36,582 bases of DNA from a virus: positions 1-36,582 of IMG/VR virus record IMGVR_UViG_3300031758_000232, one strand, 5' to 3'. This document shows, piece after piece, positions 14,225 to 30,094 of the stretch. Each line of letters starts with the position of its first letter. Position 1 is the stretch's first letter. The position numbers were made by a program, and so were the translations under genes. The notes beneath the pieces were generated by a model. It saw nothing but the letters and a program-made list of their open reading frames with translations, was not told the DNA's origin and ran no database searches.

Positions 14225-14252
14225 TTTAATCTCCTTGTTTTAATAATGTTGA

Positions 14253-15294: not shown

Positions 15295-15926
15295 TTAATT
15301 TTTCCTTGATTATTAGGCTTCGGGAGCCTATCACGCACTTGACGTAGATCAACATATCCTCGGTTATCAATTGGTGCAGATAAAAACTGAGCCCGGTTTA
15401 CTTGATTGCCAACATAAGGCTGAGATAAGCGACGGATCTCATTAAGTGCTGACGATTCATCCGCAAATCCAATCAAACCACCACCATGAGAAATCATTGC
15501 AATACGTTCTAAGATGGTTTTGCTATCATCAATAACATCTTCTGGAGTATTGTTATTGGAACCATAATAACCTTGAGAATTGCTACACATCACCTTTCTC
15601 CTTCCTTGGCATTCATAGATTTTCTCTGCTCCATTTTTCAAGTTATATTCTCTTTCTTCTTCATCATAGAATATGCCATCTCCTTCAGTTTCACTTTCAT
15701 AAACTCTTTCACTAGACCACCCGTTAGGATCATAATAACAATCAACTATAAAGATGCCATGCCCAAGTCGCATCCAACCACAAAGATTAACCCCATCATA
15801 AACACTATATTGTTCAGGACATGCATAAGAATTTCTTTCTAATGTAAGTCCACAATAAGAATATTCATTTTTTCCTTGATCATTAGCCATAGTGGATTTA
15901 TGTGGTTCAATACGATTATAGGTCAC
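15291..15926 (-). CDS. Hypothetical protein, 211 aa
   Basis: The protein is Tyr-, Asn- and Cys-rich in its first half (YSYCGLTLERNSYACPEQYS) and has a helical C-terminal half with SKTILERIAMISHGGGLIGF. No known family is recognised. The track start is GTG at 15926, overlapping the upstream stop as GTGA. An ATG at 15890 is an equal alternative (MANDQGKNEYSY). No secretion signal or membrane span is visible. Confidence 0.5.
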   Translation of the reverse strand: MTYNRIEPHKSTMANDQGKNEYSYCGLTLERNSYACPEQYSVYDGVNLCGWMRLGHGIFIVDCYYDPNGWSSERVYESETEGDGIFYDEEEREYNLKNGAEKIYECQGRRKVMCSNSQGYYGSNNNTPEDVIDDSKTILERIAMISHGGGLIGFADESSALNEIRRLSQPYVGNQVNRAQFLSAPIDNRGYVDLRQVRDRLPKPNNQGKIK

Positions 15927-16141
15927 TGGTTCAGCCTAGGGAAAGGACTTGTGCCAGTTTTTAAAATGTCTCTTAAATCATCACAGGAGTAACCACAATT
16001 CTTACATTTATAAACATTAATAACCTCTATATTTTTATAATTAACTGGAGAGATATAACGAGATAAATATTCTTCAATGGGATCAATTGCGTTTCCAAGG
16101 TCAATATCTCCAGCACATTCTGGACAGTAGTAATTTTTCAT
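15923..16141 (-). CDS. Zinc-ribbon protein, 72 aa
   Basis: Two CxxC knuckles, CPEC at residues 6-9 and CKNC at 47-50, form a typical zinc ribbon. I take the ATG at 16141, giving MKNYYCPEC, because zinc-ribbon proteins usually begin right before the first knuckle; TTG at 16156 is also possible. It may bind nucleic acid or a protein partner. It is coupled to the next gene by GTGA. Confidence 0.6.
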   Translation of the reverse strand: MKNYYCPECAGDIDLGNAIDPIEEYLSRYISPVNYKNIEVINVYKCKNCGYSCDDLRDILKTGTSPFPRLNQ

Positions 16142-16152
16142 TAATTTAATCT

Positions 16153-16245
16153 TCAAGTAAAATAAAGTTTTTCAAATTGTTCTGAACATAAACTTAAAAC
16201 AATCAAACAAATTAAGATAACTATAGTTCTTAAAAACTTAAACAT
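16153..16245 (-). CDS. Putative 30-aa membrane micropeptide
   Basis: A 30-residue frame, MFKFLRTIVILICLIVLSLC plus ten residues, begins inside the stop region of the upstream gene (8-base overlap, ATGTTTAA) and ends just before the zinc-ribbon gene. It is one hydrophobic helix with a positive N-terminus, and VLSLC resembles a lipobox. It fills an otherwise empty gap in a tightly packed operon, which supports it. Its function is unknown; a small inner-membrane effector is possible. Confidence 0.5.
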   Translation of the reverse strand: MFKFLRTIVILICLIVLSLCSEQFEKLYFT

Positions 16246-16507
16246 ATCCATTCTCTTTTAAGTAATCTTCTTCTAAATCGTTTAAATAATTATCAAAAGG
16301 CTCCTTACATTTAGTGGAAGCATATAACATATTGTTCATTTTATACCAGCCCAAATTTAGGATATACCAAAATGTTGCATTATATCCATCATAATATACT
16401 AAACCTTCTGGATCACTCTCAAGACCCCATTTTATAGTTTCAACTGGACATTCCATATGATTTTTCCAATAATCAAAAATCATTTTAGTTAAATTAATTT
16501 TATTCAT
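16238..16507 (-). CDS. Hypothetical protein, 89 aa
   Basis: This is an aromatic-rich small protein (FDYWKNHMECPVETIKWGLE, then YYDGYNATFWYILNLGWYKM) without a recognised family. It overlaps the upstream paralogue gene by ATGA and the downstream membrane micropeptide by 8 bases. Confidence 0.5.
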   Translation of the reverse strand: MNKINLTKMIFDYWKNHMECPVETIKWGLESDPEGLVYYDGYNATFWYILNLGWYKMNNMLYASTKCKEPFDNYLNDLEEDYLKENGYV

Positions 16508-16860
16508 AGTTTTAAAAATAAAGGAAGAAAGTTCAATGTCTCAAGTTTATGTGAGCCGATGAGATCAAAGGTTGCATAAGCTTCAGCAAAAGTACAAGTA
16601 GCTGTAACAGATTTATCTACATATAGATGGCTTATAGTATCTCTAGCAGCTTTCCAAGAAAGAGCTTTTTGTGAACCGTCGTGGGATGCATGATAGCTCA
16701 TAAAAATTGTTTTACACTCTTCAACGCTCAAAGTGTCCAAATAAATCCAGAAGTTCAGAACATCTTTCCAATTGGGACCTAGAAAATATTCAGGGTATTC
16801 TAGAGCAGTTTGGTCATCTAAATGATCTGCAAAATTTTGATGTGCTTTAGAGATTTTCAT
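16504..16860 (-). CDS. MKIS-family paralogue, copy 1 (118 aa)
   Basis: This is one of four related proteins. The first 45 residues (MKISKAHQNFADHLDDQTAL, then GPNWKDVLNFWIYLDTLS) and the last 20 (DLIGSHKLETLNFLPLFL) are nearly the same in the three tandem copies, while the middle differs. The middle is helical and Ala-rich. I do not recognise the family, and no catalytic motif is visible. The copies are joined by ATGA overlaps, so all three are co-translated. Confidence 0.65.
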   Translation of the reverse strand: MKISKAHQNFADHLDDQTALEYPEYFLGPNWKDVLNFWIYLDTLSVEECKTIFMSYHASHDGSQKALSWKAARDTISHLYVDKSVTATCTFAEAYATFDLIGSHKLETLNFLPLFLKL

Positions 16861-17249
16861 GGATTTAAAAACAAAGGAAGAAACGTAAAGGTCTCTAGAT
16901 TATGAGAACCAATGAGTTCAAGGGTTGCATATACACATGTAACTCCTACACTTGCAGGAATGCATGTAAGTGTAGGAGTTACAACCCAAGCTGCAGTTGC
17001 ATATACATAATAATAACATATATTATCTCTAGCAGCTTTCCGGGTAAGACTCTTTAAGGTATCCACCCTTCCTAAAGCACAATAACGCTTACCAACTATA
17101 TCAAAATCTTCGCGACTCAAAGTATCCAAATAGAGCCAGAAGTTCAAAACATCCTTCCAATTAGGTCCTAAGAAAGGTTCGGGGTATTCTAGAGCATTTT
17201 GGTTATCTAAATGATCGGCAAATATTTGATGTGCTTTAGAGATTTTCAT
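16857..17249 (-). CDS. MKIS-family paralogue, copy 2 (130 aa), with hairpin insert
   Basis: It has the same conserved start (MKISKAHQIFADHLDNQNAL) and end (ELIGSHNLETFTFLPLFLNP) as copies 1 and 3. Its core holds an extra stretch VVTPTLTCIPASVGVTC that aligns poorly with the other copies. That stretch is encoded exactly by the 46-base inverted repeat at 16938-16983, so the core seems to have been changed by an inverted duplication that kept the frame. Confidence 0.65.
   Translation of the reverse strand: MKISKAHQIFADHLDNQNALEYPEPFLGPNWKDVLNFWLYLDTLSREDFDIVGKRYCALGRVDTLKSLTRKAARDNICYYYVYATAAWVVTPTLTCIPASVGVTCVYATLELIGSHNLETFTFLPLFLNP
16938..16983. repeat. Near-perfect 19-bp inverted repeat inside a gene
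   Basis: TGTAACTCCTACACTTGCA at 16938-16956 pairs with 16965-16983 with one G-T wobble around an 8-base loop. The outer 16 pairs are perfect. There is no T run, so it is not a usual terminator, and it lies within the coding core of MKIS copy 2. Confidence 0.93.
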
Positions 17250-17629
17250 GGATTTAGAAACAAAGGAAGAAATGTAAAGGCCTCTAGATTATGAGAACCA
17301 ATGAGTTCACTGGTTGCATGACCAGATGCATATACAGTTCCTAATTGATATGTAGAGTCAGCACGCCAAGCTTCATATGCATAATACTTACATATAGTAG
17401 CTTCAGCAGCTTCCCAAGCATTGTTTATAGCAGAAACTCTAGAATCTGCGTCTAAAGCCCAATAACGAACATAATTTAATCTAAAATCTTCTTCACTCAA
17501 AGTATCCAAATAAAACCAAAAGTTCAATACATTCTTCCAATTGGGTCCTAGAAAATGTTCAGGGTATTCTAGAGCGGTTTGGTCATTTAAGCGATCTGCA
17601 AATCGTTGATGTGTTTTAGAGATTTTCAT
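17246..17629 (-). CDS. MKIS-family paralogue, copy 3 (127 aa)
   Basis: This is the first copy of the tandem array in transcription order. The start is MKISKTHQRFADRLNDQTAL and the end is SELIGSHNLEAFTFLPLFLN. The core (AWEAAEATICKYYAYEAWRA) is Ala-rich and helical, a feature seen in several unclassified helical repeat proteins of bacteria. It follows the upstream gene after three bases and overlaps copy 2 by ATGA. Confidence 0.65.
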   Translation of the reverse strand: MKISKTHQRFADRLNDQTALEYPEHFLGPNWKNVLNFWFYLDTLSEEDFRLNYVRYWALDADSRVSAINNAWEAAEATICKYYAYEAWRADSTYQLGTVYASGHATSELIGSHNLEAFTFLPLFLNP

Positions 17630-17632
17630 AAT

Positions 17633-17941
17633 TTAAGACGGTTCAAATTTTTTCTTTAGCCTAAGAAATGTTTCTCTTTCTCTCTTTTCAATCATTTTAT
17701 TGTTTTTAGCTAGTCTTTCGCTTTGTTCATTCTCAAATTTAATGCGGGTATCATATTCTTCGTCGGTTTCTAAGCGTAATTTAGATATTTCAAACGCATT
17801 ATAATCTGAAAATCCATCAACATTGATATTCACCCAACCTTCATTAATAAGGTCTTGAATTTTATTCTGTATATTTTGAAGTTTTCCCTCAAAAAGACAT
17901 ATTTCCAAAAATTTATATTCTTTAATGAGTTTTTTGGTCAT
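17633..17941 (-). CDS. Hypothetical protein with ETDEEYDTR motif, 102 aa
   Basis: The N-terminal part (YKFLEICLFEGKLQNIQNKI, then DLINEGWVNINVDG) looks like the small alpha/beta domain of phage proteins with LI.EGW. The C-terminal part carries LRLETDEEYDTRIKFENEQS and a charged helix. The ETDEEY motif is shared with the protein at 13910-14224. The role is unknown. Confidence 0.55.
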   Translation of the reverse strand: MTKKLIKEYKFLEICLFEGKLQNIQNKIQDLINEGWVNINVDGFSDYNAFEISKLRLETDEEYDTRIKFENEQSERLAKNNKMIEKRERETFLRLKKKFEPS

Positions 17942-17968
17942 TTTAGTAATGCAAATTAATAATGTCTA

Positions 17969-18256
17969 TTATCCTATAATTATTACATCAACCTTAGTCT
18001 CAGTGAGTCCAGCATCTTCTGCAGTTTTAGGTTTATTACACACATATACCAAATATTTTTCAAGACTATACTCAAACACACTACCATTTTTATGAGTTGT
18101 TTTAAATACTTTTCCTGGTTCAATATCAATACTATCTGAAAGATAACTCCTAGATCCGTCATCACAAGTTTCAAGCAATAAGACTTCAGTATCACCGGCA
18201 TTATCTGACTGGTTATACAGTTTATCAATTTTTTCTTTAAGATCTTTAAGTTTCAT
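17969..18256 (-). CDS. Hypothetical protein, 95 aa
   Basis: I choose the ATG at 18256 (MKLKDLKEKIDKLYNQSDNA), because this start matches a widespread small phage family beginning M-x-VKDLIE-x-L and then a beta-rich domain (EVLLLETCDDGSRSYLSDSI). An upstream start at 18286 would add ten hydrophobic residues overlapping the previous gene. The function is unknown. Confidence 0.55.
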   Translation of the reverse strand: MKLKDLKEKIDKLYNQSDNAGDTEVLLLETCDDGSRSYLSDSIDIEPGKVFKTTHKNGSVFEYSLEKYLVYVCNKPKTAEDAGLTETKVDVIIIG

Positions 18257-18539
18257 AATTAAGATGACTACCATTACAATCCGCAAAAAAGTGAAAACCT
18301 ATGCTAATGCCTTTAATTTTGAATTGAATAAAAAAGAGGTCATTCCAAGACACAAAAGAAAAATAAACACTGAACCAAGGACTTCCACGATATTCAAATT
18401 CGTCAAGACAGTTAATGTAATGAAATTTAAAGAGGCATTTTTCATGGAGATAGCCTTTAGATTCTTGAAGATGGAAAAATTCTAGATAATATGCCTTTTC
18501 ATCATCAAATGAATGATTAACAATGTCAAAAATTTTCAT
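18246..18539 (-). CDS. Hypothetical protein, 97 aa
   Basis: This is a Phe/Tyr-rich protein (KAYYLEFFHLQESKGYLHEK, later WFSVYFSFVSWNDLFFIQFK) with predicted beta strands and no family recognised. It is the first gene after an ACTGGCACA element with a TATAAT box 22 bases upstream of its ATG, so it probably heads a sub-operon. Confidence 0.5.
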   Translation of the reverse strand: MKIFDIVNHSFDDEKAYYLEFFHLQESKGYLHEKCLFKFHYINCLDEFEYRGSPWFSVYFSFVSWNDLFFIQFKIKGISIGFHFFADCNGSHLNYET

Positions 18540-18560
18540 GAGGTTTTGGTGTATTTTACA

Positions 18561-18606
18561 ATTATAGTATATTGAAAAGTATGATGTGAGTTCAATGTGC
18601 CAGTTT
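18561..18606 (-). promoter_or_regulatory. ACTGGCACA element D with TATAAT box
   Basis: On the minus strand AACTGGCACATTGAAC (about 18591-18606) is followed 30 bases later by TATAAT at 18561-18566. The element is shared with sites at 21.2, 28.0 and 30.1 kb, each in an intergenic gap and in the same orientation. No good -35 box is seen here, as expected if a bound activator replaces it. Confidence 0.5.
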
Positions 18607-18622
18607 GCAAAGCTTCACAAAA

Positions 18623-18835
18623 TCAATCAATTACATCAATTTCCTTAACAGCAAATTCATCATAATAATTACTTGAAAGTTCTTTTATTGCGGTTTGTCT
18701 ACTTACACCATTGTTAATCATATAATCTTCAATATAAATTCTGCGTCATTCAGAATTTAAGTTTTCAGCATCTCTTTTAATGCGGCTTACATTGTCTGGT
18801 TTATCGTAGACATCATAAGTTAAATTTGTGTTCAT
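18623..18835 (-). pseudogene. Small gene interrupted by in-frame TGA
   Basis: From the ATG at 18835 the frame reads 29 residues (MNTNLTYDVYDKPDNVSRIK ... NLNSE), meets TGA at 18746-18748, then continues in frame with RRIYIEDYMINNGVSRQTAI and on to a second TGA at 18623-18625. Both halves look like coding sequence and the second contains a helix-turn-helix-like NNGVSRQTAIKELSS. Trp (TGG) in place of TGA would give NSEWRRIYIE. The intact protein would be 70 residues. It is a broken gene, a sequence error or a read-through case. Confidence 0.55.
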
Positions 18836-18864
18836 TGTTTTAAATGATAAAGAGTTTAAAATTA

Positions 18865-19086
18865 CTAATTTTTCTTATTTGGATAGATAAAGGGCTCTCC
18901 AATTTTTTCTAGAAGTGCGCGAGCAAAACTTATTTCACCATAAACTGCACCACTTTCAAAAGTATCATCATAATTTCCACCATCTGAATAATCAAAATAA
19001 TCTCCATGAATATCATATCCATGTTCACTTTCTGCATATTTTTTGATTAGGTCAATCAAAAATTCAAGTTTCTGCTCTGTGGTCAT
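18865..19086 (-). CDS. Hypothetical acidic protein, 73 aa
   Basis: The protein begins MTTEQKLEFLIDLIKKYAES and continues with an Asp/Tyr/Gly-rich loop (YDIHGDYFDYSDGGNYDDTF) and a final helix. It is acidic like many small early phage proteins that inhibit or mimic nucleic-acid-binding host factors, but no family is recognised. It overlaps the upstream gene as ATGA. Confidence 0.5.
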   Translation of the reverse strand: MTTEQKLEFLIDLIKKYAESEHGYDIHGDYFDYSDGGNYDDTFESGAVYGEISFARALLEKIGEPFIYPNKKN

Positions 19087-19271
19087 TTGTAATACATCTC
19101 CTCTTCATATTTAACTAGATCATAATTTAAAATATGCCAAAATTCCCAATTCATTTCATCTGGTCCTTCCGTGAGATGATACCACCATTCCCAACGATTA
19201 TCTAAACATTGTCTCCAACCGCATTGAATTTTTTCAAAGAAGTTCATTTTTCTTTTAAATTTTTTATACAT
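19083..19271 (-). CDS. Hypothetical Trp-rich protein, 62 aa
   Basis: This is a very aromatic short protein: KIQCGWRQCLDNRWEWWYHL, then EMNWEFWHILNYDLVKYEEE. A basic N-terminus (MYKKFKRKMNFF) precedes it. No family is recognised. It is coupled to the next gene by ATGA. Confidence 0.5.
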   Translation of the reverse strand: MYKKFKRKMNFFEKIQCGWRQCLDNRWEWWYHLTEGPDEMNWEFWHILNYDLVKYEEEMYYK

Positions 19272-19274
19272 AAT

Positions 19275-19661
19275 TTACTTGATTAATTCCACAAGTTCAC
19301 TAAATTTATCATAGACTGATTCTAAGCCATATGAATGTGCATCTTCATAAGCAAGTGAATAACACTGTTCTCGTTTTGGATTTTGACTGACTCCAAATTC
19401 TTCAAAAAGGTCTTCTTTAAACTCTCCTAATAGCCGATTATATTCTTCACGGTATTTTGCGGCATGTTCTTTAAGTGCATCTGAATCCACAATCTTTTGA
19501 AAAGTAAAACCTTTAGGGAATGGAACATCTTTATTGTCTTTATACTCGTTGTAGGAACCATGCCATATTGTTTTACCTTTATCATAGACATAGTAAGTTG
19601 TATAGTCGGTTGAACGAGGATAAGTGTTGGTCGTAGTTTCGTAATAGTTAAAGTCTTTCAT
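19275..19661 (-). CDS. Hypothetical protein, 128 aa
   Basis: The protein has an N-terminal beta segment rich in Thr and Tyr (NYYETTTNTYPRSTDYTTYY) and a helical C-terminal part (EEYNRLLGEFKEDLFEEFGV). No known domain is recognised. Its ATG overlaps the stop of the 59-residue gene upstream as ATGA. Confidence 0.5.
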   Translation of the reverse strand: MKDFNYYETTTNTYPRSTDYTTYYVYDKGKTIWHGSYNEYKDNKDVPFPKGFTFQKIVDSDALKEHAAKYREEYNRLLGEFKEDLFEEFGVSQNPKREQCYSLAYEDAHSYGLESVYDKFSELVELIK

Positions 19662-19837
19662 TTGTTTGTGAAGCGGTTTAAAAAATTTTCAGTTAAAGTG
19701 CCAGGCTTATAGTCTGGATCAAGATATTCTACCATACCTAAAATTGATATGGCAGTTTCAATGGCTTTAGGAATTTCATCTTTCCATTGTGTTAATGATG
19801 CTCCATCTCCACCAATAGTTTCTACAACATTAACCAT
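19658..19837 (-). CDS. Small hypothetical protein, 59 aa
   Basis: The ATG at 19837 lies inside the 3' end of the previous gene and the frame runs to a TGA overlapping the next ATG, filling a 160-base gap. The product starts MVNVVETIGGDGASLTQWKD and is helical, with a conserved-looking DEIPKAIETAISILGM. The overlaps at both ends and normal codon use make it a real gene; its function is unknown. Confidence 0.6.
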   Translation of the reverse strand: MVNVVETIGGDGASLTQWKDEIPKAIETAISILGMVEYLDPDYKPGTLTENFLNRFTNK

Positions 19838-20181
19838 AACTTTTCACTAAATTTAGCTAGAGAAAAGTCATTTAAAGAAACAAACTCACAAAAATTTATT
19901 TTCCCATTATCAAATTTATATACAACAACAATTGGAAATGATAATTTGAGTATTGAATTATCTAGAGCTATATTTTCTGCACTATCATCTGGAATTTCAT
20001 TTTCATATTCATCTAAGAACACTATTGCACCATTTTCTTTTATGACAGTCTCATAACAGTCATAAAACTCATCAAATGGGATAAGACCCAAACATTTATT
20101 AATGTCGTCATCTAAACTCTCACAAGACATTTTCCATGCCCATTTTCTGTATTCTTCTAAGTTTTTAAACAGTTTTTTCAT
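19822..20181 (-). CDS. Hypothetical acidic protein, 119 aa
   Basis: The protein begins MKKLFKNLEEYRKWAWKMSC and has acidic middle segments (DDDINKCLGLIPFDEFYDCY, FLDEYENEIPDDSAEN), then a beta strand rich end. No family is recognised. It overlaps the next gene by 16 bases. Confidence 0.5.
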   Translation of the reverse strand: MKKLFKNLEEYRKWAWKMSCESLDDDINKCLGLIPFDEFYDCYETVIKENGAIVFLDEYENEIPDDSAENIALDNSILKLSFPIVVVYKFDNGKINFCEFVSLNDFSLAKFSEKLWLML

Positions 20182-20187
20182 TTTTAA

Positions 20188-20496
20188 TTAATGTTTGAAT
20201 TCCAAGTAATCACATAGCATATCTATTGATCCTTCGTTAATGATGGACCAAATTCTTTCGGCCCTTGGTTTTCCTTGACCGTTGAAGGTCCAATGATAAG
20301 GACATTCAATAAAGTTTTTTCGTCCATTTTCACGTTTTTCTGCTTCGTAAACCCAAAACCACCAGCATCTAATAGCAAAGACAAATCGCTTAAAATACCA
20401 TGGCATAAGGCATAGATTATCAATTGTAGTTTCAAAGTAATAAACGAAATCATAATCCAAATATTCTAAGGACCAGTCATGTAATTGATTAAGCAT
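20188..20496 (-). CDS. Hypothetical aromatic-rich protein, 102 aa
   Basis: This protein contains LMPWYFKRFVFAIRCWWFWVYEA in three parts: a short hydrophobic amphipathic helix flanked by charged ends, then CPYHWTFNGQGKPRAERIWS. It might associate with the membrane, but the helix is not clearly membrane-spanning. The family is unknown. It overlaps the upstream gene by 8 bases. Confidence 0.5.
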   Translation of the reverse strand: MLNQLHDWSLEYLDYDFVYYFETTIDNLCLMPWYFKRFVFAIRCWWFWVYEAEKRENGRKNFIECPYHWTFNGQGKPRAERIWSIINEGSIDMLCDYLEFKH

Positions 20497-20707
20497 TATT
20501 CCCCTCTAAAGTCTGTGCAATAGACTGATAGATTTGTGCTGAGGCTTTAAAGCATTTACGAGTATTTACATCAGTAGTTTCATATGCATTTTTGAAATTT
20601 TCTCCGGCTCTAGAATAAAGTTCAGAAATTATTATCCAAGGCTTTTGCTCTTTTGGTACATTTTCTAGTAAAATTTGAAGATCTGTTGCAAGTTGTGGTT
20701 GCGTCAT
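20489..20707 (-). CDS. Hypothetical helical protein, 72 aa
   Basis: This is an all-helical small protein (LATDLQILLENVPKEQKPWI, then SRAGENFKNAYETTDVNTRK and SAQIYQSIAQTLEGNN). It has no catalytic residues of note and no recognised family. A 38-base gap separates it from the upstream gene. Confidence 0.5.
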   Translation of the reverse strand: MTQPQLATDLQILLENVPKEQKPWIIISELYSRAGENFKNAYETTDVNTRKCFKASAQIYQSIAQTLEGNNA

Positions 20708-20745
20708 GATTTTATATTATTGTATGATGTTTTATGATAGAGCAA

Positions 20746-21162
20746 TCATAATTTGTTGTTATATAGCCATTTACATCCCATATTTGATTGGTCAATGATT
20801 CTCCTCATATTTACAGATTTAATTCCTTCTTTCATTATGCTATGTATTTCTTTGATCACACCAGTATTAAGAGAATAAATCATATCATCAGTTTGAATAA
20901 CGACTCCAGGGCAGAAATCTGTATCTCCAACATTTTCAACTTTTAAAAACTGTAAAAGGTAATCTAAGCGGCTGGTGTCCATATTAGGAATTGGCTCTAT
21001 CAATAAAACTGCACATCTAGCAGCCTTCCAGCCATCAATAATTCTATCGTTGGCACATAAGCCATCTGACAATTGTTTCAACCATTGAGACATCTCGTAT
21101 CTCTCTTCTGGCGAGCCTGGTTCTGGACTTGTCCCCCAACCCTGCCATTTTTTATCATTCAT
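20746..21162 (-). CDS. Hypothetical protein, 138 aa
   Basis: I choose ATG at 21162 because AAGGAG lies 10 bases upstream and a candidate TATGCT -10 box lies further up; starts further upstream would overlap these signals. The protein begins MNDKKWQGWGTSPEPGSPEE and is followed by helical and beta segments with single Cys residues. The family is not recognised. It follows an ACTGGCACA element and probably starts a sub-operon. Confidence 0.55.
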   Translation of the reverse strand: MNDKKWQGWGTSPEPGSPEERYEMSQWLKQLSDGLCANDRIIDGWKAARCAVLLIEPIPNMDTSRLDYLLQFLKVENVGDTDFCPGVVIQTDDMIYSLNTGVIKEIHSIMKEGIKSVNMRRIIDQSNMGCKWLYNNKL

Positions 21163-21198
21163 ACCAAAATTCTCCTTGTTTTCAACAGCATAAAGCAA

Positions 21199-21249
21199 AA
21201 GCACACTCAAAGTAAGTTGAAGTGTGCCAGTCTTTTAAGTGTCTTAAGT
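21199..21249 (-). promoter_or_regulatory. ACTGGCACA element C with perfect hairpin
   Basis: On the minus strand GACTGGCACAC is followed by TTACTT and, 17 bases on, TATGCT (21187-21192), a plausible sigma70-type promoter for the gene at 21162. GCACACT at 21201-21207 and AGTGTGC at 21221-21227 form a perfect inverted repeat. The 13 bases TTAAGTGTCTTAA at 21235-21247 also occur at 34643-34655. Confidence 0.55.
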
Positions 21250-23133
21250 ATTTTTAACTTTCAGTTCTTTAAGTTGGGATTCATCTACTGTTGATGGAGC
21301 ATTTATAAGTAAACATCTAGATTGCTGAGTTTTTGGAAATGCAATGACATCTCTTATAGATTCTTCTTCAGCTAAAAGCATCACCATTCTATCAAGCCCA
21401 AATGCTATTCCTCCATGTGGTGGAGTCCCCATATCCAAAGCATCTAAAAGAAATCCGAATTGTTGTTCAATTTCTTCCTCAGTAAGACCAATAAATTCAA
21501 AAACTCTTCTTTGTAAATTTGAATCATGTATTCTTAAAGAACCTCCACCAAGCTCAATACCATTCAATACTAAATCATATGCTTTTGCAATAGACTCAGA
21601 ATTAATAGAACTTTCATCCGAAATGCCACAGAAAGGATGATGTAAAGCTTTTAAATGACCATTAGTTTCATCTTGTTCAAACATTGGAAAATCTATAACC
21701 CATAAAAATCTTGGTTCGTTTTCAGGACTTATGAGATTAAGTTCTCTTGCCAAATATTGACGAAGCTGTCCTAAAGATTTATTTACAACATTTAAAGTTC
21801 CTGCTGCAAATAGAATTAATGTTCCTGGTGCTGCTTCAGTTCTTTTTAACAACTCAAGTTTAATCTCATCAGATAAGTTATCTTTAATTGCCCCAATTGT
21901 GTCAACCTCTCCATTGTCTCTTACTCTAATAAAGGCAAGACCAGAACCACCAGAGGATTGAACTTCACTAAAAATATCACCTCCAGGTTTAATTCTTACA
22001 TTGCTGATTAAATTATTACCATTGGGAATGGATATACATTTTACAACTCCACCATTTTGAATTGCACTAGAGAAAATTTTAAATCCAAAATCAACAAATA
22101 AATCGCTCATGTTGATTAGTTTTAAATCATATCTAAGATCAGGCTTATCCGAACCATACTGATCCATAGCTTCATTCCAAGTCATTCTCTGAAATGGTAA
22201 GTCTAATTTAATTCCTTTAATAGAAAGCCAAATTTGTTGAATAAGCCTTTCATTTAATTCAAGAATTTCATCTTGAGTCATGAAGCTCATTTCCATATCT
22301 AATTGAGTAAATTCTGGCTGCCTATCAGAACGAGGATCTTCATCTCTGAAACATTTAGCGATCTGATAATATTTCTCAAATCCACCAGTCATCAGTAATT
22401 GTTTAAAGATTTGAGGTGATTGTGGTAACCCAAACCACTCTCCTTCATGCATTCTACTAGGAACCAAATAGTCTCTAGCACCTCCTTTTGTAGAGCGAAT
22501 AAGAATTGGAGTTTCAATCTCAATAAAACCTACATTTTCAAGAAAATTGCGAATAGTCTTTGCAGTTTCATGGCGAATAAGAAGATTTCGGGTCATGTTC
22601 TCTCGCCTTAAGTCAAGATACCGATGTTTCAATCTTATCTCATCTCTTACAATTTCTTGACCAGAAACTGAAAAAGGAAGAATTGATTTTATAGAATTTA
22701 GAACAACAATATCTTGAATATCTATTTCAATTTTTCCGGTATATATCTTCTCATTAACTGATTCTTGGGGTCTTTCTTTTACGACCCCACAAACTTGAAT
22801 GACCGTTTCTTCTTTTAGTTGTTCAGCAATTGAAAATAAGTTTTCTCCAATTTCAGGGCTAACTGTTAGTTGAACAATTCCAGAACGATCCCTAAGATCA
22901 ATGAATATAAAACCACCATGATCTCTTCGGCTATGAACCCACCCACAAAGTTTAACCTTTTGGTTAATTTCTTCAGAACATAATTGACCGCAATGATGAC
23001 TTCTCATTTGATTTTTGTTTGTTAATTCCACTAAAGTATATTTAAATGAAATTTTTTCTACTGGTAGAAGTGGTTGAATATTAATATCAACTAATAAGTT
23101 TTTATCCATTTTTTCTACAACTTTGAATTTCAT
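21244..23133 (-). CDS. aspS: Aspartyl-tRNA synthetase, phage-encoded
   Basis: This is a full-length bacterial-type class IIb AspRS that charges tRNA(Asp) with aspartate using ATP. The anticodon-binding OB fold starts at residue 43 with [20 protein letters not shown]. Motif 1 lies near 200-212, motif 2 [16 protein letters not shown] at 262-277, a QSPQ site at 238-241, the bacterial insertion (GAD) domain at about 330-460 and motif 3 [14 protein letters not shown] at 575-588. All key segments are present, so the enzyme should be active. Family homology starts at 23007 (Met43); the 42 earlier residues are unusual, and starts at 23133, 23109 or 23007 are all possible since none has a strong ribosome site. 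Its base composition matches the phage, which suggests an old acquisition. Confidence 0.96.
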
Positions 23134-23833
23134 TGATAAATTTGTTAATAGCTAACTCAGCCCAATTTTCTGCACATGTTCTTATCATTCCAATAATAGA
23201 ATTATTATCCTCATGATATGTTATACTATAGCACCTATCCTGCTCACCCCATTTTACTCTATGTGGAACACCATCTTCACACTCAACTTCAAATCTTATT
23301 GATTCTACCATTTTATTAAATCTCTCATAAGTCCAGGTTGAAAGACTTTTGGTAACCTTTAAATCATAATAGTTATCTTCGTATCCATAAACGCCGGGAA
23401 TAAAAACTCTCTCATTTACTACTTCTAGTGTTTCGTTTTTATATTTACTTTTCCCATAAATCGTCTCAGCAAGAGATTTATATAAATGAAACCATCCAGA
23501 TTCATGGAGATATGTTCCTAAATCAAAAGAAAAAATATAATCTTTACCTAAAATGTGATCATTATCGGGATAAATACTAATACTAAATCGTCTCCCATCA
23601 TATTTGTGTTCATCATCTAGTAATAGAAGTTTTCCCCACCACTTAGTCTTAAATAAAAATAGTAGATCTAAAGAAACATAAAACTTAAATAAAAACGGTA
23701 AACAAATGTTGAATGTTATAGTTTTTTCATTGTCATTTTCTAGAATAAGGTTAAGTGCAAACTCATCCTTTGCTCTATAAACTTCAAAATTAATTGAGTT
23801 TCTGTAGTTATTAGAATAAAATGTTTTTCTCAT
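23102..23833 (-). CDS. Hypothetical protein, 243 aa
   Basis: This mostly beta protein has a hydrophobic stretch ([20 protein letters not shown], residues 47-66) that could touch the membrane but is broken by charges. It also contains [20 protein letters not shown] and a C-terminal helix. No known family is recognised. Its end overlaps the longest possible AspRS frame by 32 bases, and its TAA overlaps the AspRS ATG at 23109. Confidence 0.5.
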
Positions 23834-23869
23834 GAAGATTTTTTGTTGGGTGGGTTATGGTATATAGAA

Positions 23870-24385
23870 TCAAACAGTGTGATAGATTTGCTGCTTATAT
23901 TTTCTTAAATTCATAACAACACCTTTAGCCTCTTCAAATGTTTTAATTCTTGGTGTAATTCCAGCCACCAATCCCTTTGTCATAGCGTTGACTATTGAAA
24001 AATAAACTTGTAGGTCTTGAGTATTATACCATTCATGAATAAGATAATCATCACTTTCATTAACAACATCAGCTTCTTCGGATTTTTCCCACCATCCTGT
24101 CCATTCCATACTATAATTTTCTGGATGTATTTTAGCATTAGCAAGAAAAATTCTTAGAGCTTCTTCTGTTTCCCTATGTAACTTTAAATAGTTTTTTTCC
24201 TCTTCTTCAGTCAATTCTGAATCTTCACCAGTTAAAAGTTCATGAATATCTCCAGGAACATATGAGTTACCATAAGGTCTTTTTGGATCAATTTCTGGAG
24301 CACCAGTTTCACAGTTATTCCATCTAACATACATATTCCTCAGAAGAGTAATATGCTGCTCAGTTAATTTAAATTGATTTGTCAT
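23870..24385 (-). CDS. Conserved phage protein (RPYGNS motif), 171 aa
   Basis: The N-terminal 60 residues (LTEQHITLLRNMYVRWNNCE, GAPEIDPKRPYGNSYVPGDI) match a pattern recurring in many phages: L-x-EH-x-x-LL, W, E-x-GAP-x-IDPKRPYGNS, DI. The role of that family is unknown to me. The rest is helical and acidic. ATGA links it to the next gene. Confidence 0.6.
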   Translation of the reverse strand: MTNQFKLTEQHITLLRNMYVRWNNCETGAPEIDPKRPYGNSYVPGDIHELLTGEDSELTEEEEKNYLKLHRETEEALRIFLANAKIHPENYSMEWTGWWEKSEEADVVNESDDYLIHEWYNTQDLQVYFSIVNAMTKGLVAGITPRIKTFEEAKGVVMNLRKYKQQIYHTV

Positions 24386-24579
24386 AATAATTTTAATAGT
24401 TTGCTTTTTGGAAAGTTTGGTTTTGGAATAGGAATATCAAATTTTCTGCATATATTATAGTAGGTTTGTTGAGTTATTATGTCAGTTTTTAACTCTTCTT
24501 GAGATGCAATTTCAAGATAATAATCATAATAAATATCAATAAAATCTTTACTTGGCTGAATGTCATTAAATGATTTCAT
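24382..24579 (-). CDS. Hypothetical protein, 65 aa
   Basis: This is a short helical protein (SFNDIQPSKDFIDIYYDYYL, then TQQTYYNICRKFDIPIPKPN) with a basic proline-rich end. No family is recognised. It overlaps the next gene as ATGA. Confidence 0.45.
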   Translation of the reverse strand: MKSFNDIQPSKDFIDIYYDYYLEIASQEELKTDIITQQTYYNICRKFDIPIPKPNFPKSKLLKLL

Positions 24580-24587
24580 GGATAATT

Positions 24588-24770
24588 CTAAGCTTTTAGA
24601 GCATCATTTTGTTCTTTCTCTTTATCTTCCCATGGATCAGGACGATAATGTTGAGTAAGCTTTAAATCTTCTCCAATGATTCCGGCGTCTTGTAGAAATT
24701 TTCTACATTTTTCTGGAGTGTTATGTATTTTTAAAAACTCATCAATGTCAGTTCGGGTTAATTTATTCAT
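24588..24770 (-). CDS. Hypothetical protein, 60 aa
   Basis: The protein starts MNKLTRTDIDEFLKIHNTPE and is helical and charged, ending DPWEDKEKEQNDALKA. The family is unknown. It is coupled by ATGA to the upstream 122-residue gene. Confidence 0.45.
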   Translation of the reverse strand: MNKLTRTDIDEFLKIHNTPEKCRKFLQDAGIIGEDLKLTQHYRPDPWEDKEKEQNDALKA

Positions 24771-25135
24771 TCTATCTCTGATAAAGAAAGTTGTCCGTTA
24801 TTTTCTTCAATTTTTTTAATTCTCAACTCTTCAAGTTTCTCATCAGAAATAAAAGTTTTAAATTCGTCAAACTCATAATAATCAAAGCAACCATGTTTAT
24901 CTTGAGCAATAAACTGCATATCAGGTTTTTGTTTAATTTCATTTAGATTTAAAATAGAAATTTCCTTTGCTGTTATTTCCATTCTACTATATAAATCGTC
25001 ATATGATTCTAAATTCACAATTCGTTCTGTAGCTTTTTTAGCATCTTCTACCGAATCGGCTAAAACTAGAATATCTGCATCAGTATGCCAAGATTGTTCT
25101 ACATATATTGAAAATAATTTTAATTCATTCATCAT
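24767..25135 (-). CDS. Hypothetical protein, 122 aa
   Basis: The N-terminus (KLFSIYVEQSWHTDADILVL ADSVEDAKKAT) has the strand-helix order of small alpha/beta proteins with a VEDAxxA helix, a recurring feature of small phage regulators. The C-terminal half is helical. There are two adjacent ATG codons at the start. No precise family can be given. Confidence 0.5.
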   Translation of the reverse strand: MMNELKLFSIYVEQSWHTDADILVLADSVEDAKKATERIVNLESYDDLYSRMEITAKEISILNLNEIKQKPDMQFIAQDKHGCFDYYEFDEFKTFISDEKLEELRIKKIEENNGQLSLSEIE

Positions 25136-25187
25136 TTTTATTCTTCTCTGTTAAATATTGGCCAAGATTATATAAAATAAAGTTCAT
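25125..25187 (-). CDS. Possible 20-aa coupling micro-ORF
   Basis: An ATG overlapping the upstream stop as ATGA opens a 20-residue frame (MNFILYNLGQYLTEKNKNDE) that ends inside the next start region. It bridges a 48-base gap and could pass ribosomes from one gene to the next. It is short enough to be chance. Confidence 0.25.
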   Translation of the reverse strand: MNFILYNLGQYLTEKNKNDE

Positions 25188-25528
25188 GCTTTTTTAATTA
25201 GTGTGTTTAAGAATTTTCCAAATTCGTTGTTTAATGCACTTCCAATATAGAATTGTAGAAGCCTTTCTCCATAATTTTCCAAAGTTGAAAGTTCATCATA
25301 ATGTGATTTAAAAACTGGCTTCCATTCCATCTGATGTCTATGTAGACACTCTTTGTTGACAATAATTTTAAATTCTATGATAGGAATGAGATCAACCGAA
25401 ATTCTTTCAGATTGTTGAAATACTATGGACTTTTCATCCTCAAACATATTATATGTTGGAATAGTAACTCCATTCTGCTTGAGTGTTTCTTCTTGATCTT
25501 TATCAAGTTTAAAGGTGCTGTATAACAT
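25184..25528 (-). CDS. Hypothetical protein, 114 aa
   Basis: This is a mixed alpha/beta protein starting MLYSTFKLDKDQEETLKQNG, with ERISVDLIPIIEFKIIVNKE in the middle and a helical end. No family is recognised. It lies three bases after the NADAR gene in the same transcript, so a related role is possible but unproven. Confidence 0.5.
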   Translation of the reverse strand: MLYSTFKLDKDQEETLKQNGVTIPTYNMFEDEKSIVFQQSERISVDLIPIIEFKIIVNKECLHRHQMEWKPVFKSHYDELSTLENYGERLLQFYIGSALNNEFGKFLNTLIKKA

Positions 25529-25531
25529 TGA

Positions 25532-26050
25532 TCAATTAGGGATTTTAATAAGATCTTCTCTGAGACATGTAAGAACTTGACCAAGCCAATTGGTTCCTCT
25601 CCAGTTTTTAGGGTCTTGAATGCCTACTGCACCTTCAGCCATTCCAATTCCCCAAACAGTATCGGTTGGAGATGCCTCAACCAAATAATGATCTACAGTG
25701 TTCATAAGATATTCAAAGGCATTTTTATCTTGAGTGAACTTATAAAAACAACCTTCATAGACAATTTGACGAGCATGTGTTCGCCAAACTTGCAAATCAA
25801 AATTTTTCAATGTTCTCCCTAGTTCTTTTTGTTGTCTTGGATGTTTCTGTCTCATAATAGTTTGAGCACTTTCAAAATCATTAAATAGAAGAGCTTTTTG
25901 TTGCATCATATATTGCTCTGAGCAATTGTAAGGAATGCAAGTTCTAGTGTCAATGAATGGCGTGAATGCCCAATTAGAAAGATAGCCATAATAAAAGAAA
26001 TGATAGTTGTTAAATATCTCAAGATAATTTTGTTCTTTAAATGTAATCAT
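25532..26050 (-). CDS. NADAR-domain protein (YbiA/DUF1768 family)
   Basis: The 172-residue protein is a complete NADAR domain: FFYYGYLSNWAFTPF at 18-32, CSEQYMMQQKALLF at 43-56 with the conserved Glu45, LGRTLKNFDLQVWRTHARQI near 77-96, FTQDKNAFEYL, EASPTDTVWGIG at 125-136 and WRGTNWLGQVL. NADAR proteins act on ADP-ribose-linked substrates; some bacterial members remove ADP-ribose from guanine in DNA and pair with DarT-type toxins, and YbiA acts on riboflavin intermediates. In a phage early operon a role in reversing host ADP-ribosylation defence is attractive but inferred. Confidence 0.9.
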   Translation of the reverse strand: MITFKEQNYLEIFNNYHFFYYGYLSNWAFTPFIDTRTCIPYNCSEQYMMQQKALLFNDFESAQTIMRQKHPRQQKELGRTLKNFDLQVWRTHARQIVYEGCFYKFTQDKNAFEYLMNTVDHYLVEASPTDTVWGIGMAEGAVGIQDPKNWRGTNWLGQVLTCLREDLIKIPN

Positions 26051-26433
26051 AATTCTTGGTAATCATAATTCTTGCCATGGTAAATAATTCTATTAATAAA
26101 TCGTCCAAACATTGTCATTTGTCTGTTTGCAATTCTAGATGCCTTATGAATGGTAATGTCGTAAATATACCGATAAGTATTAAATTTACCAGAAGGTAAT
26201 ATTAACAAAGACATATAAAACCTAGAATCTTCATTTAGTATAGAACCACAAGGATAAGATAATCCTTCATTATAAGGTTCATATTTTTCACAAACTAATG
26301 TCACATAATAAGAACAAATTTTGTTTTGATTCACATCTAAAAAATCAGTTACTATACCATAAGACTTTAAATTATTAATATAATTATCTTCAACTGAGAT
26401 AATTCTTTCTTTTGTTATAAGTTTTTTAGTCAT
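26047..26433 (-). CDS. Hypothetical protein, 128 aa
   Basis: I take the ATG at 26433, which overlaps the upstream stop (ATGACTAA); an ATG nine bases earlier is possible. The protein has beta segments (YVTLVCEKYEPYNEGLSYPC) and a basic C-terminal helix (HKASRIANRQMTMFGRFINR). No family is recognised. It sits directly before the NADAR gene and overlaps it as ATGA, so the two are translated together. Confidence 0.5.
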   Translation of the reverse strand: MTKKLITKERIISVEDNYINNLKSYGIVTDFLDVNQNKICSYYVTLVCEKYEPYNEGLSYPCGSILNEDSRFYMSLLILPSGKFNTYRYIYDITIHKASRIANRQMTMFGRFINRIIYHGKNYDYQEL

Positions 26434-26614
26434 TTGCTGCATTATAAGCTTCTATTTGCTTAATACATTGCTTCCAAGTCGTACTGGAGATTGTTCGGGC
26501 AAACTTCACAAAAGTATCAGGTTTCCCATAATATTCTGAACAACTACCATCATCCCAAATACCACCAACCTTAAAGTATTCTTCTACAAGTTTTAGGATT
26601 TCTTTTTCAGTCAT
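26426..26614 (-). CDS. Hypothetical protein, 62 aa
   Basis: I choose ATG at 26614, directly after the stop of the 438-residue gene; a longer frame upstream runs antiphase over that gene. The product (MTEKEILKLVEEYFKVGGIW, then DDGSCSEYYGKPDTFVKFAR) is helical with no recognised family. Confidence 0.5.
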   Translation of the reverse strand: MTEKEILKLVEEYFKVGGIWDDGSCSEYYGKPDTFVKFARTISSTTWKQCIKQIEAYNAAND

Positions 26615-26615
26615 T

Positions 26616-27932
26616 TCATTTAATTTCAGTAGGTAATGATGTGGCGTTGAATGGGAGGTAGTGTGTATCATAATTGCCAGGCTCAGGTTTGCGGAATTTC
26701 CATTCTTTATAGATGTCAATGAAACACCAACACCTCCCATCCTTGTCACACCACCCCTCACGCTCCCAAGGATTATCGTCCACTACAACAGGAGCAGAGT
26801 GGCAATTCTTAATTAGTTCAGCAGCCTGAATTAGTATATCTGGAAGTTCAGAGCAGCATGGCATTGCTCCAATTTCTTCCATACGTTGAAGATGCCTAGC
26901 ATGATCCTCCATCCACTCAACCAACTTTACGACCTCGCCATCATCTCGTGTTGTTGGCCCATAATCATCTCCATAATCATCACATTCTTGATTGAGTGTG
27001 GCAATAGAATCAAGGGCTCTCCTACTCTCCTTTGAATATTTCTTAAGTAATTCAATAACATGAGCTAAATCCATAGGTTCCATACAGCTCATACCGAAAG
27101 ATTCAAGCCTCTCTACCTCTCTACTGAGTAATTCAACGGCCTCTTTTATCTCGTCTTTAGAAGGAGGAGCTGACAACTGCTCCATTAAAGCATCAGCAAT
27201 ATGCCAGGGTGTCCAATATCCATCTTTTTTTGGGGTAAATAGAGGTTGATTTGGTGAACCATTCCATGTAAAACTATAACGCACTAGCTTATTTTCTTCA
27301 ACTTGCTCCTTAGCCTGAGAATCTGGCCTATGGCTCCAAAGTGACAAGATAGCTCTGGCAAATGAACGATGGTTGAACAGATACTCCCGTTGACCTTGTT
27401 CTTGTACTCCAGTTTCTATCCAATGTTTACGTTCAAGATTATCAATATCCTCATCTGTTGGATCCTCATCCGGGTGGGTAGGCCTGATAAAAAGCTCATA
27501 GCGGCCATCTGGTAGCTCTGCAATGTAATCAAACTGAGCATTTTCATAACCACGAAAGTTTGATACATGTAGGATTCCTATCACTTGATCCTTATCCAGA
27601 TGAACTGAAGGCTGGCAATCCAATTGATTATTAAAATATCGCGTCCATTCTATTACAGAAACTAGAGGAACTGAACCAAAATAAGGTGTTCCATAGCGTT
27701 CTTTCCACCAAACTCGGAAACTCGTTTCAAGATCTTCATCTGTTACTACCCCATCCGCATGGTGCATCAACCGGGCGTCGGAATTTAAGTCATACAAAGC
27801 TGCTCCGGCAATAGCAATAGCGTCATGATGACTAACTCGCTCGCACCACCTATTATCCTCAGTATTTTTGCAGCATTTATCAACCCAGTCAGAAATCTCA
27901 GCAAAGGTTGGCCGGCGATTAGGTTTCATCAT
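26616..27932 (-). CDS. Large multi-domain hypothetical protein, 438 aa
   Basis: The N-terminal part (about 75-125) has a helical module (FRVWWKERYGTPYFGSVPLV ... VIEWTRYFNNQL), the middle (130-190) a beta domain, and residues 330-390 a helix-rich part with PCCSELPDILIQAAELIKNC. The C-terminus carries NPWEREGWCDKDGRCW, also found in the 166-residue protein at 14519-15019. The gene is noticeably richer in G and C than its neighbours, and its pieces resemble separate small cyanophage proteins fused together. Function unknown. It follows ACTGGCACA element A. Confidence 0.6.
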   Translation of the reverse strand: MMKPNRRPTFAEISDWVDKCCKNTEDNRWCERVSHHDAIAIAGAALYDLNSDARLMHHADGVVTDEDLETSFRVWWKERYGTPYFGSVPLVSVIEWTRYFNNQLDCQPSVHLDKDQVIGILHVSNFRGYENAQFDYIAELPDGRYELFIRPTHPDEDPTDEDIDNLERKHWIETGVQEQGQREYLFNHRSFARAILSLWSHRPDSQAKEQVEENKLVRYSFTWNGSPNQPLFTPKKDGYWTPWHIADALMEQLSAPPSKDEIKEAVELLSREVERLESFGMSCMEPMDLAHVIELLKKYSKESRRALDSIATLNQECDDYGDDYGPTTRDDGEVVKLVEWMEDHARHLQRMEEIGAMPCCSELPDILIQAAELIKNCHSAPVVVDDNPWEREGWCDKDGRCWCFIDIYKEWKFRKPEPGNYDTHYLPFNATSLPTEIK

Positions 27933-27956
27933 ATTTTATCTCTAAACTCTTATTAG

Positions 27957-28011
27957 AGTAGCACACCACTCAAACAAACTTAAAAGTGATGTGCCAGTTT
28001 TTAAAGTGACA
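27957..28011 (-). promoter_or_regulatory. ACTGGCACA element A
   Basis: On the minus strand GTCACTTTAAAAACTGGCAC is followed by an inverted repeat (GCACACCACT at 27961-27970 against AGTGATGTGC at 27985-27994) and a TTTGTT-17-TAATAA candidate promoter just before the 438-residue gene. It shares long stretches with element B at 30.05 kb. The 124-base gap around it holds no gene. Confidence 0.55.
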
Positions 28012-28055
28012 TACTTAATCTAATGTACTGTAAATTTTTCATTAATCATATTATT

Positions 28056-28910
28056 TCAATAACAAAACCTATAACTACAAGAATTATTAGGGCAATATAC
28101 GCCACCGCCATTAACAATAGTTTCAGCTTCCAATTGTGTTCCACAACTGGGGCATGGGTCAGGATACTCAACTGGTGTTTCTCCATCCACATTATCATCA
28201 CATTGCCTCATAATAATGTAAGGAGCTTCCTTTTCATTATCCTTTAAATCCAAAAATCTATGATAACCATCAATTAAGAAATATTGATTATTAATCCTCT
28301 TAACAACCCCAACTGGTAAATTTAATTCAAAATCATATGAGGCATAAGAACTATCTTTTTTAAGTCTTGAAACATATTCTCCATTTAAGCCAATTTTATC
28401 TAATGGAATTTGTTCAATAGTTATGGTATTTGTTTGAATTAAGTTATCCAACAAATAAGAATATTCTTCTGATAGGGCAAATTTAATCTTTTGAATGTCT
28501 GTTTCTTTTTCTAGCATGGTGTTAATAGAATCTAGCATCTCATCATAGTTTTCAAATTCAAATCCACTGATTTCTTCACCATAATATCCATTTGATACTT
28601 CTAAGGAATATAAATTTTTATCATATGCTTTATAAATTCTCATTAAGCGATCTGCACAATATTTTTCTATTTTTGTTAAGTTATAAGATTTTTTTCTAAT
28701 TTTATTGGATTTATCTTTATATAATTGCTCAATAACTAGATAATTTAGTGATTTATTTACTTTCTTTATTTTTAAATTAGTAATTTTTCCACACCGGCAT
28801 ATTGAATCGCATCCATATAATGAACAATCATACTCATAGTCATAATCACTATCAATCATATAAGTGTTGCCAAATCTCAATTCAAAGTTGTTGTATGTTT
28901 TGGTTTTCAT
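28056..28910 (-). CDS. ParB/sulfiredoxin-like protein with zinc ribbon, 284 aa
   Basis: The N-terminal third has a Cys cluster (C29, C34, C38, C40) and basic helices. Residues 163-235 look like a ParB/sulfiredoxin fold: TIEQIPLDKIGL, then LPVGVVKRINNQYFLIDGYHRF with the signature DGYHR at 214-218. The C-terminus is a zinc ribbon with CPSC at 253-256 and C273, C278. ParB-like domains bind CTP or ATP and can act as nucleases or kinases; the zinc parts suggest nucleic-acid binding. The exact activity cannot be told. DGYHR makes the fold call fairly good. Confidence 0.65.
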   Translation of the reverse strand: MKTKTYNNFELRFGNTYMIDSDYDYEYDCSLYGCDSICRCGKITNLKIKKVNKSLNYLVIEQLYKDKSNKIRKKSYNLTKIEKYCADRLMRIYKAYDKNLYSLEVSNGYYGEEISGFEFENYDEMLDSINTMLEKETDIQKIKFALSEEYSYLLDNLIQTNTITIEQIPLDKIGLNGEYVSRLKKDSSYASYDFELNLPVGVVKRINNQYFLIDGYHRFLDLKDNEKEAPYIIMRQCDDNVDGETPVEYPDPCPSCGTQLEAETIVNGGGVYCPNNSCSYRFCY

Positions 28911-28925
28911 AAATTTTAATAGTTT

Positions 28926-29569: not shown

Positions 29570-29580
29570 ATTTTTTATGA

Positions 29581-30006: not shown

Positions 30007-30040
30007 TGAACTAATAATTGTTTTCTGAATTTTCAATAGT

Positions 30041-30094
30041 CTAACATATCACTCAAACAAAAGTAAAGTGATGTGCCAGTTCTTAAGGTGTCCT
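30041..30094 (-). promoter_or_regulatory. ACTGGCACA element B
   Basis: On the minus strand GACACCTTAAGAACTGGCAC, then ATCACTTTACTTTTGTTTGA, lies between the terminase-like gene and the RHH gene. TTTGTT-17-TATTGA is a weak sigma70-type promoter. ACATATCACT and AGTGATGTGC form an imperfect inverted repeat, as in element A. Confidence 0.55.

Follow-up and report, generated by a model that had tools for sequence, protein, structure and literature searches.

How a phage comes to carry the gene of a cellular enzyme, aspartyl-tRNA synthetase (AspRS), and what the enzyme might do for it, is the question raised by a 36,582-nucleotide stretch of viral DNA (a 36.6-kb virus record of IMG/VR; hereafter, the window). 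Phage-encoded aminoacyl-tRNA synthetases (aaRSs) are of a known kind. According to the accessible parts of a survey of huge phages, up to 15 of them occur per genome, distinct from yet related to the host enzymes, and they have been suggested to charge phage tRNAs (Al-Shayeb 2020, PMC7162821); the accessible main text of that survey does not contain the word 'aspartyl'. No AspRS of a T4-like cyanophage is reported in the titles and abstracts searched. The original prediction called such enzymes very rare in phages of this size class. Very rare they are among the T4-like cyanophage records searched, but from huge phages in general aaRSs have been published (PMC7162821, as far as accessible).

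The gene and the phage that carries it

The open reading frame (ORF) runs uninterrupted through 629 codons on the minus strand, at the coordinates originally predicted (ORF list and translation of the window; Table 1). Pfam recognizes the anticodon-binding OB-fold, a class II core (residues 164-603) and the GAD domain. The NCBIfam equivalog models for aspS (NF001750/TIGR00459) match with 797.2 bits (cut-off 443) and 755.2 bits (cut-off 373.85), and the protein thus belongs to the bacterial-type AspRS sequence family. The closest solved structures by sequence are also bacterial AspRSs (top, E. coli 1c0a, E 2.4e-161), and PHROG 19509, a family of unknown function, matches residues 43-627. The AlphaFold model has a mean pLDDT of 75.2, with the active-site lid and the N-terminal extension poorly defined. 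The GC content of the gene (33.6%) is close to that of the phage ORFs (33.4%). A scan of positions 20600-24000 gave 8 promoter-like sites versus 15.5 in shuffled sequences, none of them upstream of AspRS on the AspRS strand, and no terminator was found in the same interval.

As predicted, 42 residues precede the conserved start of the family, since the NCBIfam matches begin at residues 41-43. A Met is aligned with M43 of the phage in all 102 cyanobacterial AspRS rows, 18 of which have a stop codon at most three codons upstream. The extension is absent from the AspRS of a related phage, represented by contig G392 (see below), the ORF of which opens with a codon that overlaps the stop upstream, seven residues before its Arg. 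In the AlphaFold model, residues 1-42 adopt no fold. Usage in codons 11-42 is coding-like (41st percentile) and is matched by none of 2498 out-of-frame control pieces, but a wider control weakened this signal: equally high scores were reached by 65 of 499 open antisense pieces and by 175 of 770 open gap pieces, the latter probably including unlisted small genes. Both M9 and M43 are possible starts (extension of 34 or 42 residues).

Table 1. Features discussed in the text, with their positions in the window and the basis of each assignment
Feature	Positions	Strand	Basis
AspRS ORF as found (P0001), 629 aa	21244..23133	-	ORF list, Pfam, NCBIfam
AspRS from conserved start M43, 587 aa	21244..23007	-	NCBIfam start at residues 41-43; Met in 102/102 cyanobacterial rows
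42-residue N-terminal extension or leader	23008..23133	-	pLDDT < 50 over residues 1-42
Alternative start M9	23109-23107	-	Two bases ahead of the upstream ORF's stop codon (23104-23102)
OB-fold anticodon-binding domain (PF01336), residues 60-145	22699..22956	-	Pfam
Flipping loop, residues 214-219, STKGGA (family, STPEGA)	22477..22494	-	Alignment; E. coli P170-E171-G172-A173
Motif 2, residues 262-275; L267P and A269S versus family	22309..22350	-	Alignment
GAD insertion domain (PF02938), residues 354-454	21772..22074	-	Pfam
Motif 3 region, residues 574-586	21376..21414	-	Pfam and alignment
Upstream ORF, 243 aa, unknown function, overlapping the AspRS ORF	23102..23833	-	phrog_20814, E 8.5e-08
Downstream ORF, 154 aa, without family	20746..21210	-	Pfam and PHROG scan
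NADAR-domain protein; counterpart in G392 (55%)	25532..26050	-	Pfam, comparison with G392
ATP-dependent DNA ligase; counterpart in G392 (55%)	32037..32909	-	Pfam, PHROG, comparison with G392
Island of small ORFs, mostly minus-strand, containing AspRS	11741..34456		ORF list, comparison with B23
T4-like portal	301..2013	+	Pfam, match to B23
T4-like prohead protease	7419..8066	+	Pfam, PHROG
T4-like major capsid protein gp23	9333..10748	+	Pfam, match to B23

The original prediction also took the phage to be T4-like, which its portal, prohead protease and gp23 bear out, but the size class that it assumed was too small. Over its full length the window is 100% identical to positions 162131-198712 of a 247,932-bp IMG/VR contig (G001), which may itself be incomplete, no exact terminal repeat having been found at its ends. 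The 21.9 kb around AspRS recur at 100% identity in a third contig (59.2 kb), and the metagenome numbers of the 247,932-bp and 59.2-kb contigs differ. The nearest sequenced relative is Synechococcus phage B23 (243.6 kb; gp23 75% and portal 70% identical), with which numerous G001 genes are shared over the 49 kb of B23 compared. With gp20 and gp23 closest to T4-like cyanophages and with T4-like replication genes, the virus is, judged by its genes, a jumbo T4-like cyanophage (Kyanoviridae-like).

AspRS lies in an island of ~23 kb, flanked by gp23 with a GIY-YIG endonuclease and by a tail completion gene; in B23 the same borders enclose only one ORF. The ORF at the border (10796-11581), intron-endonuclease-like with a GIY-YIG motif recognized by eye, has a counterpart in the corresponding position of B23 (47%) and may hint at how the phage came by the island. 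Further features of the window are a C5 cytosine methylase divided between two ORFs (11741-12676), a minus-strand ORF of 266 aa within the island that resembles an N-terminal terminase ATPase (30099-30899) and a patch of 47-51% GC at 5001-7000 (ORFs 4781-6631 and 6637-7044) in a phage of 33% GC. A repeated ORF family starting MKISK(A/T)HQ or MKISTTHQ (16504-17629 and 31600-32040) has several dispersed copies across G001 (BLAST). G001 also encodes an NAD/ADP-ribose set, which may serve counter-defence: the NADAR protein, a NadM-Nudix-like protein, although it does not reach its NCBIfam cut-offs, and a nicotinate phosphoribosyltransferase (L008:11499-12560 and 14044-15420).

Relatives and ancestry of the phage enzyme

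A profile scan of IMG/VR returned ten AspRS loci, two of them from this phage and one from G392, a 125-kb contig (fragment) of a related phage that encodes both AspRS and LysRS. Of the 330 ORFs of G001, 57 are matched in G392 at E 1e-10. The G392 AspRS is full-length and 56.5% identical to the phage AspRS, compared with a median of 46.2% over the 47 ORFs matched over at least 70% of their length. The two phages also have in common the NADAR protein, the DNA ligase and a small ORF of the island. Given the G392 enzyme and these shared island genes, AspRS looks inherited and kept in the lineage; on such comparisons the phage AspRS is a real gene, old in the lineage and constrained.

Among 50,697 phage records, 48 contain a match to P0001 at 1e-5, and the only one with a cyanophage name is Microcystis phage MaAM05; for comparison, gp23 matches 388 Synechococcus and 61 Cyanophage records. 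MaAM05 (MW495066, L004) is filed as a jumbo cyanophage with an annotated aspS. It is probably the PhiMa05 of PMC8093824, which has the same host strain (SG03) and for which the accessible part of that paper describes tRNA synthetases for Trp, Thr and Lys as well as capsid and portal proteins, and states that no terminase was found. Unlike the phage studied here, MaAM05 carries housekeeping genes (purL, purF, hppA and coaE) in the 42 kb read, and its AspRS groups with non-cyanobacterial rows in the tree. We think that the part read is bacterial, and MaAM05 was rejected as a relative, as was the aspS of the Acinetobacter MD-2021a 'phage', which also has bacterial-looking neighbours.

Cellular relatives are abundant: 379 of 386 cyanobacterial genomes match the phage AspRS at E 1e-100. 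The top 39 rows (62-64% identity) all come from genomes of 1.7-3.7 Mb, followed by a 7.2-Mb genome at 61%. These small genomes form a clade that we infer to be Synechococcus/Cyanobium/Prochlorococcus, and small size is not sufficient for membership, as G042 and G185 (2.5-2.8 Mb) group with other cyanobacteria. In a 60-row tree, both phage AspRSs group with 29 rows of this clade (support 100/99), beside rather than inside them, the 29 being held together at 95/89. The phage rows are joined to each other at 91/38, a value to be read with a long-branch warning; the phage branch is long. When a single phage row at a time is placed, in quick trees, the nearest group by path is the small-genome clade and both cyanobacterial groups are unbroken, with SH-aLRT support of 88 and 22 for the 29 rows. 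At eight columns diagnostic for the clade (45 clade rows versus 57 other cyanobacterial rows), the phage has the clade state at seven and G392 at six. The tree proposed at the outset for finding the donor thus points, in broad terms, to a single clade of cyanobacteria with small genomes. As part of the preferred reading set out below, and with the same reserve, a phage ancestor may have taken the gene from near the base of that clade.

An altered active-site lid

The phage enzyme resembles the AspRS of the small-genome clade in domains, length, identity (up to 64%) and seven of the eight diagnostic columns. It differs in its flipping loop, where the clade has PEGA and the phage KGGA, in L267P and in the possible extension of 34 or 42 residues. 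Conservation was assessed over 150 AspRSs, 102 cyanobacterial and 48 others (two of the latter filed as phages), after one short piece and one duplicate had been dropped from 152 rows. The phage keeps 134 of the 142 columns conserved in at least 97% of this set. G392 also keeps 134, at partly different columns. The eight breaks in the phage (E164D, P216K, E217G, A235G, L267P, A396G, P504I and A605S) compare with a mean of 0.65 and a maximum of 8 among the 150 rows. Intact are the residues aligned with Q192, S193, Q195, K198, R217 and E219 of the E. coli enzyme and the motif 3 Arg.

Positions 216 and 217 of the phage correspond to P170 and E171 of E. coli in the alignment with the structure hit. 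The codons of the changed Lys-Gly pair are AAA GGA, at least three base changes from Pro-Glu. Pro-Glu is kept at this place in all 150 AspRSs aligned, and P-E-G in 8 of 8 other AspRSs from viral contigs, G392 included; the viral loci L173-L179 were compared at the flipping loop alone. A DNA pattern for TKGGARD(Y/F) has no match in the 386 cyanobacterial genomes. Among viral contigs this pattern, in which the Arg codon also permits Ser, matches five stretches, two of which are this phage. The other three have Ser instead of Arg and were not taken for AspRS; one of them, L219, resembles AspRS weakly over 41 residues (E 0.006) before a stop codon ends the match. The KGGA lid was found in no other AspRS examined.

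In solved AspRS structures, the Glu of the flipping loop contacts the amino group of aspartate, and the loop, which is PEGA in E. coli, closes on aspartyl-sulfamoyl adenylates (PMC12262901, accessible parts). With Lys-Gly in place of Pro170-Glu171, the phage enzyme is classed as a divergent variant rather than a canonical AspRS, even though QSPQ and the Arg residues of motifs 2 and 3 are present, and a lid without the usual Glu is expected to alter the kinetics. Motif 2, FRDEDLRADRQ in the family, is also changed (Table 1). The original prediction of a complete AspRS with all its segments is therefore borne out for the ORF, the OB-fold, the class II core, the GAD domain and the family scores, but not for the lid and motif 2: to judge from the alignment, the protein is conserved overall, with a rebuilt lid. 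The natural change of PEGA to KGGA offers a direct test of the need for the flipping-loop Glu in AspRS, a drug target.

Charging of host tRNAs and other possible roles

Where asparaginyl-tRNA synthetase (AsnRS) is lacking, AspRS also loads Asp on tRNA-Asn, and GatCAB then amidates it. AsnRS above the cut-off was found in 0 of 9 small-genome-clade genomes versus 6 of 6 other cyanobacteria. GatB, the Gat subunit looked for, is present in all nine clade genomes and absent from G001 and G392. Cells of the clade appear to have no route other than AspRS to Asp-tRNA(Asp) and, via GatCAB, to Asn-tRNA(Asn), and a donor-like lineage of this kind points to a non-discriminating enzyme in the phage. The His of RRDHGG, a mark of the non-discriminating AspRS of P. 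aeruginosa, was discarded as a marker, as it is also present in rows from AsnRS-bearing genomes (L141, L145 and L019; G042 has AsnRS).

The tRNA genes of the phages offer no partner for the enzyme. None was found in the window by ARAGORN or the Rfam tRNA model, as originally predicted. G001 has tRNAs for Met(CAT), in two copies, Leu(TAA), Arg(TCT) and Gly(TCC) by ARAGORN, and a sixth, tRNA-Pro(TGG) (L006:3424-3533), was missed by ARAGORN and found by covariance model. A 38-base insert with a short hairpin interrupts the 5' side of its anticodon stem; the insert may be an intron-like element, or the gene may be dead. G392 has Arg, Met and Pro tRNAs by ARAGORN, with Pro uninterrupted. Neither G001 nor the fragment G392 yielded a tRNA for Asp, Asn, Tyr or Lys (ARAGORN; covariance model on G001), so that the suggested phage tRNA(Asp) outside the window was not recovered from a 248-kb contig of uncertain completeness. 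The idea published for huge phages, that their synthetases charge their own tRNAs (PMC7162821, accessible parts), accordingly does not fit.

AspRS is not the only synthetase of the phage. G001 encodes a TyrRS outside the window at 72172-73320 (L009:12172-13320; TIGR00234 330 bits, cut-off 114), with HLGH and KMSKS present; its best matches in 18 cyanobacterial genomes, one per genome, are 46-50% identical to it. Of the 42 phage records that match it, the 30 listed include no cyanophage. Jumbo phage CBB (PMC5259590, accessible parts) and Serratia phage BF also have a TyrRS. That of CBB is reportedly paired with a phage tRNA gene (PMC5259590), and both amino acid and phage group differ from those considered here. 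Three synthetase families (PF00152, PF00579 and PF00133) were searched throughout G001, and no PF00133 (IleRS-type) synthetase was found in G001 or G392. The Pfam scan covered 65 of the 79 G001 ORFs of at least 200 aa outside the window that lie within single pieces (6 across piece ends were excluded), with 25 of 27 and 25 of 34 of the families found being listed; G001 may hold further synthetases outside the three families.

The reading preferred here, tentatively and with a little less than even confidence, is that the phage has retained a divergent AspRS that supplements Asp and Asn charging for an Asn-rich phage proteome. It draws on the intact and conserved gene, its ancestry, the donor-like genomes without AsnRS and with GatB, the cognate tRNA not found and amino-acid usage. 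An ancestor of the jumbo T4-like cyanophage lineage would have acquired AspRS near the base of the small-genome clade, and the lineage would have kept it. During infection the phage AspRS would probably charge host tRNA-Asp and tRNA-Asn, upholding the supply of Asp and Asn for the AT-rich, Asn-rich phage proteome while host gene expression falls, and the phage TyrRS would do likewise for Tyr. The proposal presupposes a host of the donor-like kind, an expressed and active enzyme of non-discriminating specificity, and charging as a limiting step. If it is true, phages can bend host translation by supplying synthetases, not tRNAs, and would do so in ecologically important cyanobacteria in which one enzyme serves two amino acids.

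Amino-acid usage bears on this proposal in both directions. Asp and Asn together make up 12.3% of phage proteins versus 6.8-10.1% in six clade genomes (small samples), and the largest phage/host ratios, taken against five of these genomes, are those of Lys (2.75), Tyr (2.72), Asn (2.42) and Ile (1.98). Against the sixth, the AT-rich genome G171, the phage is still higher in Asn (6.7 versus 5.0%) and Tyr (4.7 versus 2.3%), but the excess of Lys is gone (7.1 versus 7.2%; Ile, 8.1 versus 7.4%). Asp itself is hardly enriched (1.07-fold), and Ile is enriched yet has no PF00133 synthetase. The synthetases found in the two phages (TyrRS, LysRS and AspRS) match the excess of Lys, Tyr and Asn, a match made post hoc. 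B23 has the same share of Asp and Asn (12.4% in the 49 kb read) without an AspRS match, and demand alone therefore does not explain the gene. The eight broken columns also count against the proposal, and the loss of the lid Glu to Gly and of Pro to Lys may leave the enzyme with low or changed activity.

These same changes suggest that the protein, although derived from an AspRS, might no longer charge Asp efficiently and have another role, such as tRNA binding, shielding or sequestering, or regulation. The invariant Glu and Pro of the lid are lost, L267P falls in motif 2 and the branch is long. This is unlikely, if worth keeping in mind: 134 of the 142 columns are kept, as are the active-site equivalents listed above, and an active enzyme without Glu is conceivable, since LysRS, a class II relative, has none at the lid place (TGGA in G392 LysRS).

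The lid could instead have been rebuilt for resistance. KGGA would weaken the binding of aspartyl-adenylate mimics, such as microcin C-like or other AspRS-directed defences, so that the phage enzyme works when that of the host is blocked. Once processed, microcin C mimics aspartyl-AMP and binds AspRS (PMC9239234, accessible parts), both changed residues belong to the loop seen to close over aspartyl-sulfamoyl adenylates (PMC12262901, accessible parts), and the replacement lies at least three base changes from Pro-Glu and recurs in no AspRS looked at. The microcin-type poisoning suggested in the original prediction found no direct support here. However, the AspRS of the related phage G392 retains PEG, and the lid Glu serves the natural substrate as well, which makes such a shield rather improbable. 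The two ideas could be combined: a set of synthetases in jumbo cyanophages (a non-discriminating AspRS for Asp and Asn, with Tyr here and Lys in the relative) would raise charging, without cognate tRNAs, for the amino acids in which the phage's needs most outrun what the host supplies (Lys, Tyr and Asn), while a LysRS-like GGA lid escapes inhibition by adenylate mimics. So composite a scheme is decidedly improbable.

That the gene is a functionless passenger, captured recently or in decay, is more doubtful still. The eight broken near-invariant columns and the long branch would suit this view, but the gene is full-length in two divergent phages, with above-median identity between them and phage-like GC. 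Finally, an assembly chimera of host and phage DNA, named at the outset as what would overturn the finding, is very unlikely and can practically be set aside: AspRS is a cellular gene, and some records filed as phages carry aspS amid bacterial-looking genes, but here the arrangement recurs at 100% identity in other contigs, the best match among the 386 cyanobacterial genomes is 64%, the GC content is that of the phage, and G392 carries the gene as well.
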